A stretch of 64,000 bases of DNA from Synechococcus sp. PROS-U-1 (lineage in GTDB: Bacteria; Cyanobacteriota; Cyanobacteriia; PCC-6307; Cyanobiaceae). The notes under the pieces were generated by a model. It did no database searches. It saw only the letters and a program-made list of their open reading frames with translations, and was not told where the DNA came from. The stretch is taken from NCBI RefSeq assembly GCF_014279755.1, contig NZ_CP047951.1:1426001-1490000 (forward strand), in the 5' to 3' direction. Positions 53,519 to 60,300 of this stretch are shown one piece after another; the first letter of the stretch is position 1, and each line of letters begins with the position of its first letter. The translations under genes and the position numbers were made by a program.

Positions 53519-53634
53519 GGTTCACAAAGAAGAAGGCATTGAACAGCTCTTAGCATTTGCTACATAAACTACGTTCATATAAAGCTGACAACGCACTTAA
53601 GCGAAGTAAGGTGGGTTGGTATGTGATTCTAGAC

Positions 53635-54639
53635 ATGCTCAGATTCTTTGCGCCCTTGCTTCTAGCCGCCCCACTCATCGCTATACCCTCAGTGGAGGCA
53701 AAGGAAGTAAGGGTTTACTCGGGCCGTCATTATAATACTGATAGGAAAGCGTTCAAACAATTTAGCCAGCAAACCGGAATCAAAGTAAGGCTGATCGAGG
53801 CAACAGGCATCTCACTTGTCGAACGGCTTAAACGAGAAGGAAGCAATTCAAAGGCAGATGTCATCTTGTTGGTCGACTCGGCAAGAATTAACAACGCAGC
53901 ACAAGCGGGACTCCTGCAACCAGTCAAAACACAAAAGCTGATAGAAAACATTCCTGCGCGGTATCGAGATCCCTCCAATCGATGGTTTGGATTCACAAGG
54001 CGCGTCAGAGCAATCATCGTAAATCCAAAAATCATTGATCCAAATACAATTAAGACCTATGCAGATTTATCCAAGCCAAGTTTGAAAGGCAAGCTTTGCC
54101 TGCGCAAAAGAAAAAACGTCTACAACCAATCGCTTGTTGCCGACCAAATCGTTCTGAAAGGCAAAGCGAAAGCGAGTGCATGGGTCAAACAGATGGTGGG
54201 CAACGTAAACCAACCATACTTCTCTGGTGACGTTTCACTGATTCGTGCAGTGGGACAAGGAAAATGTGGCGTTGCACTGGTCAATCATTATTACTTGGCG
54301 AGAATGCAGGCAGGAGCAAGCGGAAAGAATGATCAAAAAATCACGTCAAACATAAAACTGATTATGCCTAACCCAGCACATGTAAATATTAGTGCGGCTG
54401 GTGTTGCGAAATCAGCCAAGAATAAAAAAGAGGCAATTCAGTTTATAGAATTTCTTTCATCACCACAGGGAACACGATTAATTGCCGGCCCAACATATGA
54501 GTACCCATTAAAAGGGCTTGGAACAGCAAAAGAGTTGAAAAGATTTGGAGAATTCACTCCTGACAATGTTGCAATAAGCACCCTTGGTTCCACACAAAAA
54601 ACTGCAATACAGGTGATGGCAAATGCAGGTTGGCGTTGA
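53635..54639 (+). CDS. futA: Iron(III) ABC transporter binding protein (FutA/IdiA)
   Basis: 334 residues from ATG 53635. A signal peptide (LLLAAPLIAIPSVEA) leads into KEVRVYSGRHYNTDRKAF, the YSxRHY iron-binding opening of FutA1/IdiA. The two late Tyr of NHYYLARMQ complete the usual Tyr set. It captures Fe(III) in the periplasm. A tandem Fur-like box follows its stop. FutB/C are not in the window. Confidence 0.92.
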   Translation: MLRFFAPLLLAAPLIAIPSVEAKEVRVYSGRHYNTDRKAFKQFSQQTGIKVRLIEATGISLVERLKREGSNSKADVILLVDSARINNAAQAGLLQPVKTQKLIENIPARYRDPSNRWFGFTRRVRAIIVNPKIIDPNTIKTYADLSKPSLKGKLCLRKRKNVYNQSLVADQIVLKGKAKASAWVKQMVGNVNQPYFSGDVSLIRAVGQGKCGVALVNHYYLARMQAGASGKNDQKITSNIKLIMPNPAHVNISAAGVAKSAKNKKEAIQFIEFLSSPQGTRLIAGPTYEYPLKGLGTAKELKRFGEFTPDNVAISTLGSTQKTAIQVMANAGWR

Positions 54640-54700: not shown

Positions 54701-54779
54701 TTTAACTTGGTGCATACGACACGCAAGGGCTGCAATTCGATTCACAAGTGCGTATCATTTGGTCACTGACAAAAAGAGT

Positions 54780-55364
54780 ATGCTTTCAACTTCGACGTCT
54801 AGGGCCTCTGCATCTATTGAGCGTGGTCCCTCAGGTCGTGCAGTAGCGGAAGTTATTGCTCCTGATCTGTTGAATGCCATCCAAGACCATCTCAACATGG
54901 AAAGGCAGGCACACGCCTCCTACTTTGCAGCAGCGATATGGTTTGCCGAACGAGAACTGAGAGGATTTTCTCGGTTTTTTCGTGATGAATCAAGCAGTGA
55001 ACACGAACATGCAGCAAAGTTTGCAGAGTACATTATTGCTCGTGGGCAGAGTGTGTCATTGAAGGCAGTTGAAGCTCCCTTGCAGATCTGGGAATCGCCA
55101 GCAGATGTCATGGCATCTGCATTTCAAATGGAAGTTGACGTAACATCATCGCTACAGCAGCTTTACTCCATGGCAGAGCGGGTAACTGATACACGCACAA
55201 CGGTATTTCTAGACCCAATGGTAGAGATGCAAACACAGTCTGAACACGAGTTTGCACACCTCCTCGGACGCGTGAAGTTCGCCGACAATCAGGCAGCAGC
55301 CTTATTGCTGATCGACAATGAACTCGATCAAGGCAACAACAAGCCCGCATCACTACAAGGGTGA
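54780..55364 (+). CDS. ftn: Ferritin
   Basis: 194 residues from ATG 54780. A ~28-residue N-terminal extension precedes the four-helix bundle. MERQAHASYFAAAIWFAERELRGF and SSEHEHAAKFAEYI hold ferroxidase ligands, and MQTQSEHEFAHLLGRV the C-helix set. It stores iron as ferrihydrite. Marine Synechococcus ferritin has a Tyr near the site and oxidises Fe slowly; that trait is family knowledge. Between futA and ferredoxin. Confidence 0.92.
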   Translation: MLSTSTSRASASIERGPSGRAVAEVIAPDLLNAIQDHLNMERQAHASYFAAAIWFAERELRGFSRFFRDESSSEHEHAAKFAEYIIARGQSVSLKAVEAPLQIWESPADVMASAFQMEVDVTSSLQQLYSMAERVTDTRTTVFLDPMVEMQTQSEHEFAHLLGRVKFADNQAAALLLIDNELDQGNNKPASLQG

Positions 55365-55401: not shown

Positions 55402-55611
55402 TTAAGGGGAAGCATTCAAGCCCTGAGGATCAATGACAAAACATTTAATGTCACGCATCAGTGATTTAGGTGAGACTTCTAAATATTCAGCAATGAGTTG
55501 ATGACTCCATCCTTGGTTTCTCAACGCCATAGCGATCCTTAATCGCTTTTTACGCCATCCAGATGCAGTACCTAGATAGTGGGAGACCTTTGATGGAGAT
55601 TGTTTGTTCAT
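55402..55611 (-). CDS. Small HTH-like protein
   Basis: 69 residues from ATG 55611 (MNKQSPSKVSHYLG). RLRIAMALRNQGWSHQLIAEYLEVSPKSLMRDIK has the spacing of a helix-turn-helix. Possibly a regulator of neighbouring genes; the target is unknown. Confidence 0.6.
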   Translation of the reverse strand: MNKQSPSKVSHYLGTASGWRKKRLRIAMALRNQGWSHQLIAEYLEVSPKSLMRDIKCFVIDPQGLNASP

Positions 55612-55820
55612 TAATCGAGGAACTTTTTTTAAGAATACGGTGAAACCTTTGCATTCGCTTCCATAAATTACGATCAAGAGTAACCCAGGGTTCATTCAAA
55701 TAAACAAAAGTGCATGCAAACAAAGGTTGATCCCAGAAGTAGCCAATGAAACACCTGGAAGATAAATAAAAGGCAGATACACGCCTAGCATTGCGTAGTA
55801 TATTTTTTTTATTTTATCAA

Positions 55821-56114
55821 ATGTCGACGTTCAAAATTGAATTAAGGCTCCCTGATGGAATCAAATACTTTGATTGTCCCGATGATGAATATATACTTGA
55901 AGCAGCAGAACAAGCTGGAATTGATATGAGCTATTCCTGTAGAGCGGGAGCATGCAGCACCTGTGTTGGCAAAATAATTAAAGGTACAATTGATCAATCA
56001 GATCAGAGCTTTCTTGACGATGATCAAATGGAGAATGGTTATACGCTGCTATGCGTAGCTTATGCAACATCCGATTTGATCGTAAAAACGGATTGTGAAG
56101 ATGAGCTTTGGTGA
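55821..56114 (+). CDS. petF: Plant-type [2Fe-2S] ferredoxin
   Basis: 97 residues from ATG 55821. [14 protein letters not shown] and a later [10 protein letters not shown] place the four Cys ligands. It carries electrons in the cytosol, probably to the flavoprotein two genes downstream. Its N-terminus ([16 protein letters not shown]) is unlike the main photosynthetic PetF, so this is likely an accessory isoform. Iron-rich ferredoxin beside flavodoxin fits iron-dependent switching. Confidence 0.92.
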
Positions 56115-56146: not shown

Positions 56147-56425
56147 ATGAACGAAGTGAGCAAAAGTGAATCAAATCTCGTAGATCAATATTTACAGATC
56201 ACATGCTTTCAACAAATCAATGAAAAGATCTTTAAAGATATACTGGAGTACGAGCCACAAGCTGATCCCATTGGAAAGAAGTTGATAAAGCGAATAAAGC
56301 ATCAAGTCAAACAGGGGAAAATCATGCTTTGTACTGCAGATCCCAAAGCCAATGAGCATTCAAGTTGTGATAAAAAACACAATGGTTTGTTTGCTCTGAG
56401 AAGAGCATCAAGCGAAGTCATATGA
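56147..56425 (+). CDS. Hypothetical protein
   Basis: 92 residues from ATG 56147 (MNEVSKSESNLVDQYL). Helical and Lys-rich with three Cys. Sits between petF and the hydrolase in the same direction. No family recognised. Confidence 0.6.
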   Translation: MNEVSKSESNLVDQYLQITCFQQINEKIFKDILEYEPQADPIGKKLIKRIKHQVKQGKIMLCTADPKANEHSSCDKKHNGLFALRRASSEVI

Positions 56426-56446: not shown

Positions 56447-57214
56447 ATGAAAAAAAGAAAAATACTTTGGATTGATCTCCAACCATCTCTCTATTGCCTC
56501 TTCAAACGAACGGCACAAAGCTTAGGTCAAAGATATGATGTAAAACGATGGTCATTCGAACATGACCCAGATGAATCCTGCGATATTGATATTGTTCATG
56601 CACTGTTAAAGCAAACGATTGAAAAAACTATTGTCCCCGTTCACTTGGTAGGGCATGGGATAAGTGGCACAATAGCTTATCTTTATGCCAAAAAATATCC
56701 AAAGAACATCTCCTCGGTGTCATTATTATCAGTCGACAGCAATTCAAACAATCAATGGACCGCACATTACCAGAGCATGCGAAGCCAACTACCATGCTCT
56801 AGATATCACATTTTAAGCCACTTAAGCCGTCTTCTTATAGACACTCATGCCGACCATGTTCATACGATAATATCAAGATTATTGGCGAAATGCTTAGATA
56901 GTGACTTCGTCAATGGATCGATTATTGGGAACACAAAGATAGAAAATCTCAGTAAATCTGAAATTCCAACACTTGTGATCAATGGAGGCAAAGATTTTGT
57001 TGTTGATCCATGTAGTTTTAATCGATGGAAAGAAAATTTAAAACCAGGCGACTGCTATCAACAAATCGTTGGTGGTCGACATTTTTTTCCATTCAACGAG
57101 TGGAATCAAACCTCAAAAATGATTGAGTCTTTCATCGATATGATACCCAATGAAAGTACTGCCTTAGCTTGTGAAAAGTTTCAAGATCTGAGCATTATCA
57201 AGAGGAACTCATGA
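56447..57214 (+). CDS. Alpha/beta hydrolase-fold protein, altered nucleophile
   Basis: 255 residues from ATG 56447. PVHLVGHGISGTIAYLYAKKYP is the nucleophile elbow; the usual GxSxG reads GHGIS, so the catalytic Ser is displaced. LVINGGKDFVV and GGRHFFPF supply the Asp and His. If the Ser really is missing the enzyme may be inactive, or the downstream Ser may act. ATGA overlap with the next gene. Confidence 0.75.
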   Translation: MKKRKILWIDLQPSLYCLFKRTAQSLGQRYDVKRWSFEHDPDESCDIDIVHALLKQTIEKTIVPVHLVGHGISGTIAYLYAKKYPKNISSVSLLSVDSNSNNQWTAHYQSMRSQLPCSRYHILSHLSRLLIDTHADHVHTIISRLLAKCLDSDFVNGSIIGNTKIENLSKSEIPTLVINGGKDFVVDPCSFNRWKENLKPGDCYQQIVGGRHFFPFNEWNQTSKMIESFIDMIPNESTALACEKFQDLSIIKRNS

Positions 57215-58170
57215 CAAACATGAAAAGAGCGGATGTTGTAATTATCGGTGGGGGGCCGGCAGGCTGTTCTTGTGCCTTGTATACAGCGAGATCAAATCTA
57301 TCAACAATCATCCTTGATAAAAATCAAGCGGTGGGAGCATTGGCGATCACTCACAAGATTGCTAACTACCCAGGAGTAGCTGGTGACGTCTCTGGAGAGG
57401 AACTGCTGAACATCATGAGAACACAAGCTATCAATTATGGAGCAGAATATAAACAAGCTCAGGTGTATGGTATTAGTATCTCTGATACGGAAAGAATCGT
57501 TTATACACCAGAAGGAACCTTTATCGGTAAAACTTTAGTTTTGGCAACAGGGGCGATGGGTCGGGCGTCGACACTTCCTGGTGAGAATGAGTTTCTTGGC
57601 AGAGGTGTGAGTTACTGCGCGACCTGTGATGCGGCTTTCTACAAAAATCAGGAGGTTGTGGTCTATGGATCCAATCAAGAAGCAATCGATGAAGCTCTTG
57701 TTCTCACAAAATTCGCGTCAACTGTCCATTGGATTACTAACAACAAACCGAACATGAATTCAATTGGAATTCAATTATTACTTGATTCTAGCAATGTCAA
57801 GCATTGGAAGAGAACACGGTTGACATCTATTGAGGGAGACGAGAATGGAGTGACCAGCGTCAAAGTACAATCATTTGGGCAAAATGATGCACAGGAAATC
57901 GTTGTCCAAGGTGCATTTGTTTACTCAACTGGTTCCCTACCCATTACCGACTACCTCCAAGGCCTAATACCTATCAATGCCAATGGTGGAGTTCGTATCA
58001 ACGACGACATGATGACGGATATTGAAGGGGTTTGGGCAATCGGCGATATTCGCAATACTCCTTTCAAACAGGCTGTTGTTGCTTGTTCAGATGGGTGCAT
58101 TGCAGCGATGGCAATTGATAAATACCTCAACCAGCGCAAGGACGTTCGTGTGGACTGGGTACACCGCTAA
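57211..58170 (+). CDS. Thioredoxin-reductase-like flavoprotein
   Basis: 319 residues. GGGPAGCSCALYTARS is the FAD Rossmann loop and SYCATCDAAF the redox CATC. GVWAIGDIRN binds FAD. The second Rossmann motif is degenerate (VYGSNQEAID) and the HRRxxxR NADPH clamp is missing, as in the deep-branching DTR/ferredoxin-dependent types. It may take electrons from the ferredoxin three genes upstream rather than NADPH; that is inference. ATGA overlap with the hydrolase. Confidence 0.85.
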   Translation: MTNMKRADVVIIGGGPAGCSCALYTARSNLSTIILDKNQAVGALAITHKIANYPGVAGDVSGEELLNIMRTQAINYGAEYKQAQVYGISISDTERIVYTPEGTFIGKTLVLATGAMGRASTLPGENEFLGRGVSYCATCDAAFYKNQEVVVYGSNQEAIDEALVLTKFASTVHWITNNKPNMNSIGIQLLLDSSNVKHWKRTRLTSIEGDENGVTSVKVQSFGQNDAQEIVVQGAFVYSTGSLPITDYLQGLIPINANGGVRINDDMMTDIEGVWAIGDIRNTPFKQAVVACSDGCIAAMAIDKYLNQRKDVRVDWVHR

Positions 58171-58215: not shown

Positions 58216-58725
58216 TTATGACTCAGCGTTGATTTGTTGAACCCACGCTTGTAGTCGTTGGTCAGTAAGCTCCGACTCATTGTCTTCATCAATTGCCAAA
58301 CCACAAAACTTACCATCAATCACACTTTTAGAATCATCATAGGTATAACCTTCAGTCGACACTTTACCAATCAACTTGGCACCAGATTGAAGGAAAGCTG
58401 TATATAGTTCTTCCATGGCATCACAGAAGAAATCAGAATAGCCAGAGGAGTCTCCAAGGCCGACAATGGCTACAGATTTTCCAGCGAAGTCTTTGTCTGG
58501 AATTTCCTGAACCAGGTCATCCCATGCCGTTCCAGATCGTGCCTCATCAGCACCCGTATTCCAAGTCGGAACACAGCAAATTAAAGACTCGGCAGAGACC
58601 AACTCATCAATTGAATCAATGTTGTCGACATCCTTTGCCTCTGTTCCGGGCAGAAGCTCTTTAAGTCGATCAGCCACGTCTTCAGTTTTACCCGTTGACG
58701 TTGCAAAGAAAATGGTGAAAGCCAT
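58216..58725 (-). CDS. isiB: Flavodoxin
   Basis: 169 residues from ATG 58725. FFATSTGKTEDVADRL is the FMN phosphate loop, VPTWNTGADEARSG the 60s loop, and GLGDSSGYSDFFCDAM the 90s loop. It replaces ferredoxin as electron carrier when iron is scarce. Its placement near futA, ferritin and petF supports iron control, though I see no Fur box in the short upstream region. Confidence 0.95.
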   Translation of the reverse strand: MAFTIFFATSTGKTEDVADRLKELLPGTEAKDVDNIDSIDELVSAESLICCVPTWNTGADEARSGTAWDDLVQEIPDKDFAGKSVAIVGLGDSSGYSDFFCDAMEELYTAFLQSGAKLIGKVSTEGYTYDDSKSVIDGKFCGLAIDEDNESELTDQRLQAWVQQINAES

Positions 58726-59404: not shown

Positions 59405-59701
59405 TCAATACATTTTATTAACTGACAGCTTATTTGATAAACATCGATGGAGCAACTCTTCCAGCAAATGCTTTTGCGCTGACTGAGGATCAAGATGATG
59501 TTTGATCTGTGTCAAGGAATCCTTTATTGCCAGACATCGATTGCGATGAAGGCATATCTCTGCGATAAGCCGCTCTTCAAGGCGTGGATGCTGACAGCGT
59601 TGAACGGCGCGATTGGCTGACTGCATACGATGCCATATCCACTCAGCCTCTTTGCAGAGGTCACCAAGAACACCGAATGTATTCACATTCACGGCATTCA
59701 A
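59405..59701 (-). CDS. Hypothetical protein coupled to ptrA-like gene
   Basis: 98 residues from TTG 59701, which overlaps the ptrA-like stop as TTGA. His- and Cys-rich in the middle (VQRCQHPRLEERLIAEICLHRNRC), helical. May bind metal. Function unknown. Confidence 0.6.
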   Translation of the reverse strand: MNAVNVNTFGVLGDLCKEAEWIWHRMQSANRAVQRCQHPRLEERLIAEICLHRNRCLAIKDSLTQIKHHLDPQSAQKHLLEELLHRCLSNKLSVNKMY

Positions 59702-60300
59702 AATTGCAGTGGTGATGAGCTGATGAGGTCAGGAGACAATCGCATCGTGACATCACCAGGTGCCATGGCAACCAAATCAGCTTGACGCCATTTCGAAAGA
59801 AGGCGCGTTGTGGTGACGCGTGTTGCTCCAATTAGCTCACCAAAGCGATCGTGGGTGAGACGAAAGGGGAGCTGATAGGAGTCGCTGCAGCGGAGACCCA
59901 GTCGGTTCACCAAAAGAGCCAGAAGAGCATGAAGACGCTGTTCTGCCTGACCGAGATGACGGACACGCAGGAGCTGCAAGGTCCATTCATTCACGGCATC
60001 GATACCCATTTCGTCCGTGGAGACGGAATCACGGCGAAACTTCAATGCCGTAAGTGCTTCAACACAAGCACCTTCGCTGCACATGCGGTCAGTGCGGAGC
60101 CTGTCACCTGACTGCAAGAACGCCAACGTCATGCCCTCGGTCTCTTCGCAAGGGCAATACACCCGACAGACGCCTTCCAAGACTTCAAGAACAGTGGCCT
60201 GATCTCGGCCAGCAGGATCCAACAAGACGGTCTGCAGCCTTGGCATCGACAAGGGTGCCGCCGGATCGTCCGGAAGGAAGCGGTAAGCGGAGGTCGTCAC
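59698..60300 (-). CDS. ptrA: Crp-family regulator, PtrA-like
   Basis: 200 residues from ATG 60300. The N-terminal half has two CxC/Cys sites (VYCPCEETEG, RMCSEGACVEA). LPFRLTHDRFGELIGATRVTTTRLLSKWR is the HTH. PtrA in Synechococcus controls genes under phosphate and metal stress and occurs beside porins. Two Fur-like boxes are in its promoter. The neighbouring porin is the likely target. Confidence 0.78.
   Translation of the reverse strand: MTTSAYRFLPDDPAAPLSMPRLQTVLLDPAGRDQATVLEVLEGVCRVYCPCEETEGMTLAFLQSGDRLRTDRMCSEGACVEALTALKFRRDSVSTDEMGIDAVNEWTLQLLRVRHLGQAEQRLHALLALLVNRLGLRCSDSYQLPFRLTHDRFGELIGATRVTTTRLLSKWRQADLVAMAPGDVTMRLSPDLISSSPLQF

Follow-up and report, generated by a model that had tools for sequence, protein, structure and literature searches.

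The open reading frame at positions 57211..58170 (forward strand, 319 aa) of Synechococcus sp. PROS-U-1 raises the question of which electron donor serves a protein with the fold of a thioredoxin reductase that has lost its NADPH motifs. The window is the whole stretch of 64,000 nucleotides that was analysed, and all positions refer to it; papers given by PMC number are cited from excerpts of their text. The FAD loop GGGPAG (residues 13-18, 57247..57264) and the redox-active CATC (residues 136-139 with C136 and C139, 57616..57627) are intact. In the alignment, GSNQEA (residues 153-158, 57667..57684) replaces the NADPH loop, and the Arg-clamp stretch of the NADPH-type enzymes (residues 172-184, 57724..57762), which reads HRRD..RA in their rows, is VHWITNNKPNMNS here, with zero Arg. 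The initial annotation had reported the two intact motifs, the changed loop and the missing clamp, and all were recovered; these features lie on the forward strand. The NADPH loop GxGxxA/G and the HRRxxxR clamp of NTR are thus both missing, which rules out a plain NADPH thioredoxin reductase. The protein matched PF07992 at 9.2e-33; its TIGR01292 score was 286 bits, under the cut-off of 343.

A phmmer search of the PDB sequences placed the Gloeobacter FFTR (5J60/6XTF) at the top (E 1.4e-131, 441 bits), with residues 7-318 aligned and the DW-H tail covered; the runner-up reductase was 5uth (179 bits, E 1.3e-51). The entry 6gna, which we take to be a clostridial FFTR, scored 114 bits, and 5n0j/5ode and 5jri/5k0a, presumably DDOR structures, scored 60-67 bits. 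The Foldseek alignment showed 61% identity to the Gloeobacter FFTR. Judged by sequence, the protein belongs to FFTR (ferredoxin-dependent flavin thioredoxin reductase, once called DTR), a family already described, and not to a new kind of enzyme; the earlier suggestion of a possible ferredoxin-dependent reductase gains support from this membership. Published work already covers this family, the ferredoxin that serves as its donor, and its occurrence alongside the [4Fe-4S] ferredoxin-thioredoxin reductase FTR in some Synechococcus (PMC9025218). The Gloeobacter enzyme was crystallised with its ferredoxin donor (6XTF), and biochemically it prefers ferredoxin over NADPH (PMC12796991).

The Trp316 of the C-terminal tail (58156..58158, forward strand) aligns with the Gloeobacter tail and is kept in 28 of 28 aligned sequences. 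In the Gloeobacter FFTR the corresponding W315 stacks on the FAD of the partner (PMC12796991); stacking is predicted here by alignment. The diflavin-linked disulfide oxidoreductases (DDOR) likewise lack the NADPH site: they belong to the same superfamily, keep the CxxC and the FAD loop, have lost the NADPH loop and occur in cyanobacteria (PMC9025218). However, DDOR are described without thioredoxin-binding motifs (PMC9025218), yet GRG (residues 130-132) is present here and the second motif reads FY, not FF; the Gloeobacter row shares this FY, and so do 27 of the 28 aligned sequences. Together with the Trp tail and the 60-67 bits against 441, this argues against a DDOR, which is considered extremely improbable.

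The missing NADPH motifs might also mark an NADPH thioredoxin reductase that is decaying and about to be lost. However, the frame is open in 28/28 aligned sequences (part of the 39 FFTR-type hits with E < 1e-100, the present protein included), the mean column identity is 76%, and the Trp tail is kept. The CxxC is found in all 28, as are G153, N155, E157 and A158 of the altered loop; the HRR pair is absent from all 28, with a lone Arg at column 181 in three rows (L014-L016). The change of the NADPH loop is no chance decay, since those four residues are invariant. The decaying enzyme is therefore ruled out by the conservation, and its probability is negligible.

In a quick tree of 101 rows (SH-aLRT support only), the protein fell within a cyanobacterial clade of 36 rows (SH-aLRT 100), inside a clade of 49 rows (SH-aLRT 100) apart from the NADPH-type enzymes; among six long branches, L076 is the one inside the 49-row clade. 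The NADPH-less relatives outside cyanobacteria form the 13 other rows of this clade (L072-L081, L083, L084 and L087), among the best 80 of the 595 matched stretches in the scan of named genomes. They come from Omnitrophota, Bacillota (including Bacillaceae; Neobacillus, Cytobacillus and Schinkia) and Chloroflexota, and in 12 of the 13 the C-terminus is a tail carrying an aromatic residue, for example PDWH in the Chloroflexota and PQYS in the Bacillaceae; L076 lacks it. The Trp tail has been called a unique feature of the cyanobacterial FFTR (PMC12796991). In one Thermoflexales (Chloroflexota) locus (L074:5213-8011), the FFTR-like gene has a gene for a thioredoxin-like protein (PF13192, 235 aa) downstream of it and a glutaredoxin-like ORF upstream, each separated from it by one ORF. 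In Crocosphaera watsonii WH 8501 (L070), the FFTR frame as read loses its C-terminal part (261 aa), which is either a pseudogene or an assembly error.

The single-chain AlphaFold2 model of the FFTR had a pLDDT of 78.8 with a low-confidence tail. By E-value, Foldseek ranked 6XTF and 5J60 first. The superposition on 6XTF/5J60 was poor (13.5-14.8 Å over five chains; 14.7-14.8 Å to 5J60_A and 6XTF_A), the domain orientation of the model being unreliable; several NADPH enzymes were closer, at about 4 Å (including the FO form 5mjk, 4.0 Å), and the FR form 5mh4 was at 8.9 Å. The AlphaFold monomer departs from 5J60 in its domain arrangement, and its two domains look as if they were turned relative to the crystal form.

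The genes around the FFTR point to iron. Upstream is a plant-type [2Fe-2S] ferredoxin (55821..56114, forward strand, ATG at 55821 and stop ending at 56114; TIGR02008 above cut-off), whose closest PDB entry is 3p63 and second 6xtf_C, the ferredoxin of the Gloeobacter complex. The ferredoxin route is plausible because this ferredoxin matches the Gloeobacter donor as its second-best PDB entry. An alpha/beta hydrolase follows (56447..57214, forward strand), and its stop overlaps the FFTR start by ATGA at 57211-57214. The initial annotation had set ferredoxin, hydrolase and reductase in series with this overlap; the overlap was confirmed and the three genes share one strand, with a small ORF of 92 aa, unmentioned earlier, between ferredoxin and hydrolase (56147..56425, forward strand; no Pfam match). 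Facing the FFTR is a long-chain flavodoxin, isiB (58216..58725, reverse strand; NCBIfam NF006738 and TIGR01752 above cut-offs). This convergent flavodoxin, the iron-stress setting and the family name were absent from the initial annotation. Divergent from the ferredoxin is a 97-aa ORF (55402..55695, reverse strand; no Pfam match, helix-turn-helix-like by eye), which 12 of the 18 fetched loci with the block carry and all five empty sites lack; it is a possible local regulator. A ferritin-like protein (54759..55364, forward strand) and a CRP-type regulator (59698..60300, reverse strand) flank the block on the left and right, respectively. A solute-binding protein in the same island (53557..54639, forward strand) is presumably FutA-like.

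In freshwater cyanobacteria, isiA is cotranscribed with isiB, isiC and isiD, of which isiC and isiD are of unknown function (review, PMC8635728). The hydrolase is called isiC-like here by analogy, from its nearness to isiB as for isiC in the isi operon; of the 13 non-genus genomes having both genes, 9 have them no more than 3 kb apart (hydrolase E < 1e-5). The FFTR was searched in 98 genomes (34 of the genus, 26 further genomes of the family and 38 outside the family) and the ferredoxin in 59. The FFTR was found in 20 of the 34 genus genomes, and the isiB (82-100% identity) and the hydrolase were found in the same 20, so that isiB with the isiC-like gene accompanies every FFTR found in these genus genomes. 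No flavodoxin or hydrolase match of any kind was obtained in the 14 FFTR-negative genus genomes, seven of which are less than 90% complete. We are fairly confident of the assignment to FFTR, of a mechanism without NADPH and of the iron-stress context, taken jointly.

The search for the gene set elsewhere, proposed with the initial annotation, showed the order hydrolase > FFTR > < isiB in these 20 genomes: it is contiguous in PROS-U-1 and in 18/18 fetched genus loci, and G012 agrees by coordinates only. The ferredoxin belongs to the block in 15 of the 20: in 12 the distance upstream is about 1.7 kb (for G012 by coordinates), and in three it is about 3.5 kb. In the other five it is outside the block: G006, G014 and G027 have one of 73-74% identity elsewhere, and the best ferredoxin matches are 66% in G008 and 62% in G011, whose locus starts at a contig end. 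The most constant partners of the FFTR are therefore isiB and the hydrolase (20/20 each); the ferredoxin is the variable partner. In L046 the gap between ferredoxin and hydrolase is longer and contains a CP43-family antenna ORF (PF00421, 8.7e-54) and a small ORF weakly similar to that at 56147..56425.

These observations bear on an alternative reading of the locus, that this is an ordinary FFTR with ferredoxin as its sole donor, which adds capacity to FTR and lies near isiB by passive linkage in a variable island of low G+C. The Gloeobacter FFTR works with Fdx1 (PMC12796991), and the plant-type ferredoxin that 15 of the 20 genomes have within the block fits such a role; however, it is isiB and the hydrolase that are constant, and a flavodoxin match is missing from all 14 FFTR-negative genomes, seven of them less than 90% complete. 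Because the three genes are linked, a single deletion in each case may explain why they are missing together, and not a working partnership. The co-occurrence Fisher test ignores linkage and ancestry, and it is not counted as evidence.

All five fetched empty sites (G009, G021, G026, G028 and G033) have the ferritin and then the CRP-type gene, with no block-gene homologue between them; in L161, the empty site whose ORFs were examined, a single small ORF occupies this interval. In two further block-negative genomes (G007 and G032) the CRP gene matches were weak only, and the other seven are 57-87% complete, G017 having just a CRP fragment on a small contig. On an rpoB DNA tree of 26 genomes, which mixes complete and incomplete genomes and leaves 8 of 23 inner branches open, block presence changed at least 9 times, a variability that favours passive linkage. 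The tree includes 26 of the 27 genomes with an rpoB match, the G012 fragment being left out; G027 had no match. Gains and losses could not be placed on an NTRC protein tree, whose resolution was too low, and rpoB DNA was used instead. The better-supported contrasts are G009 (block absent) with G019/G031 (present; 100/99) and G021 (absent) with G029 (present; 97/85). G016 may be chimeric, its FFTR resembling one clade and its rpoB another. The G+C content is 37-45% per block gene versus 54% over the window; the composition alone does not show transfer, because the adjacent FutA and 2OG-oxygenase genes are equally low (44-45%).

Outside the genus, linkage of FFTR and isiB is rare, which favours ferredoxin as sole donor: the two genes are unlinked in 9 of 10 family genomes with both, and G040 and G044 have isiB without FFTR. 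These indicate that neither gene needs the other. The exception among the ten is G057, of another genus of the family (95% complete; L049:6123-8666), where the FFTR is convergent with isiB and there is no hydrolase match; this adjoining pair argues against the ferredoxin-only reading. The same locus has a small 2Fe-2S ferredoxin-like ORF upstream and no FTR match. On balance, ferredoxin as the sole donor is a tentative alternative, and we judge it less likely than not.

The distribution of FTR suggests where the FFTR is an addition and where it is a substitute. An FTR match was obtained in 27/34 genus genomes. When the count is restricted to the 19 of them with a completeness of 90% or more, the FFTR is present in 12 and absent in 7, whereas the FTR catalytic gene is present in 19/19. 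Of the 26 other family genomes, 15 have the FFTR without an FTR match, six have FTR without FFTR, and five (62-89% complete) have neither; the FFTR is probably the sole enzyme in those 15 (64-100% complete), since FTR was not found there. Beyond the family, the FFTR was found in 4 of 38 genomes (G061, G071, G090 and G094), with FTR also in G061 and G094; G071 and G090 are presumably Gloeobacter. The distribution across the 98 genomes indicates that one lineage has the FFTR in place of FTR and that in the genus of PROS-U-1 the two occur side by side. The PROS-U-1 genome itself (2.58 Mb, one contig) contains one FFTR, one NTRC-like gene (a 486-codon open frame with a thioredoxin domain, 32% identity), the catalytic and variable subunits of FTR, four thioredoxin-domain hits (that of NTRC included), five ferredoxin hits and two flavodoxins. 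The FFTR coexists with FTR and NTRC there and is an accessory enzyme.

The preferred reading is that the FFTR would be an accessory, iron-sparing thioredoxin reductase kept within an iron-stress (isi) block. If the Gloeobacter cycle is carried over, two reduced ferredoxins would each pass one electron to the FAD via the semiquinone; the domain would then swing, the FAD hydroquinone would reduce the CxxC disulfide, and the dithiol would reduce thioredoxin. At low iron, the FAD enzyme might take over from the [4Fe-4S] FTR, with the donor shifting from ferredoxin to the adjoining flavodoxin; the route from photosystem I to thioredoxin could then dispense with iron-sulfur proteins beyond the photosystem. 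This takeover with a change of donor is a possibility that we judge slightly short of even. An equally cautious estimate, just under an even chance, applies to the block as a complete iron-free light-to-thioredoxin shuttle, gained and lost as a unit, in which flavodoxin (FMN) stands in for ferredoxin and FFTR (FAD) for FTR.

The semiquinone/hydroquinone couple of flavodoxin lies near the range of the Gloeobacter potentials, so that flavodoxin could serve as a donor. The potentials determined in Gloeobacter are -448 mV for FAD (ox/hq), -424 mV for Fdx1, -356 mV for the disulfide and -320 mV for NADPH (PMC12796991). If the proposal is true, thioredoxin control of carbon fixation would survive iron starvation and the FFTR would be flavodoxin-dependent in vivo. 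The gene arrangement suggests that the FFTR beside flavodoxin is a spare way to sustain light-driven redox control at low iron.

The upstream regions were scanned for Fur boxes (nine regions, an E. coli consensus, 200 mononucleotide shuffles, uncorrected). No convincing box was found before the ferredoxin (197/200 shuffles as good), in the ferredoxin-hydrolase gap (21/200) or before isiB (58/200), and upstream alignments of the block loci showed no clear conserved operator. Fur-box-like sites were seen before the ferritin (54687) and before the CRP-type gene (60348), each with 5 mismatches of 19 and matched by 2 of 200 shuffles in this uncorrected scan; they are the best of the nine regions. 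Published data link genes of this kind to iron. For example, trxB, ferredoxin and isiB rise with the iron chelator DFB in Synechococcus metatranscriptomes (PMC9723758); the enzyme type of this trxB is not specified in the excerpts, and it could be another enzyme than the FFTR. Four marine Synechococcus strains have isiA and isiB and share a specific ferredoxin (Dufresne 2008, PMC2441476), and a gene group of flavodoxin and a 'thioredoxin reductase' is carried by a large share of the Synechococcus living where iron is low (PMC10119275). In the excerpts of PMC2441476, PMC9723758 and PMC10119275, the FFTR is not named and flavodoxin is not proposed as its donor; those of PMC8469568 do not mention flavodoxin as an FFTR donor, and in those of PMC12796991 it appears in a reference title only. 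Among the open-licence papers listed by the survey, none made such a proposal in its title or abstract opening. The proposal of iron-free thioredoxin reduction is specific and partly anticipated in print.

Compared with known systems, the PROS-U-1 protein resembles the Gloeobacter violaceus FFTR (5J60; 6XTF with Fdx1) over the whole length (61% identity), in the FAD loop, the CATC and the stacking-Trp tail, and in the loss of the NADPH loop and Arg clamp in both. Unlike PROS-U-1, the two genomes G071 and G090 have no FTR match and no block-gene homologue within the 12 kb read around the FFTR; PROS-U-1 keeps FTR and has its FFTR in an iron-stress block. The clostridial FFTR (6GNA and others) are also ferredoxin-dependent and NADPH-independent (PMC12796991); their similarity is lower (114 versus 441 bits), and they have no C-terminal tail over the FAD. 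The isiABC(D) operon of freshwater cyanobacteria shares the flavodoxin, the isiC-like hydrolase and, in L046, the CP43-family antenna ORF, but the operon as described in the excerpts of PMC8635728 has no thioredoxin reductase, and in PROS-U-1 isiB is convergent with the FFTR inserted.

Syn-eCAG_011 (PMC10119275) similarly pairs a flavodoxin with a thioredoxin reductase in marine Synechococcus from areas poor in iron; it is very probably the same FFTR/flavodoxin gene pair, although the excerpts of its main text do not identify the enzyme as FFTR and offer no mechanism. The 'thioredoxin reductase' of that low-iron group would thus probably be the FFTR, tied to flavodoxin and isiC, and this identification lets the correlation be tested as the replacement of an iron-sulfur enzyme by a flavin enzyme. 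The Prochlorococcus FFTR belongs to the same clade (61-64% identity among the matches listed), but it is described as the sole enzyme there (PMC9025218), whereas in PROS-U-1 it is accessory. If the proposal is true, the FTR-free Prochlorococcus would be the end point of an FTR to FFTR swap by a step-wise path, in which the FFTR was acquired or kept beside FTR for low iron and FTR was lost later.
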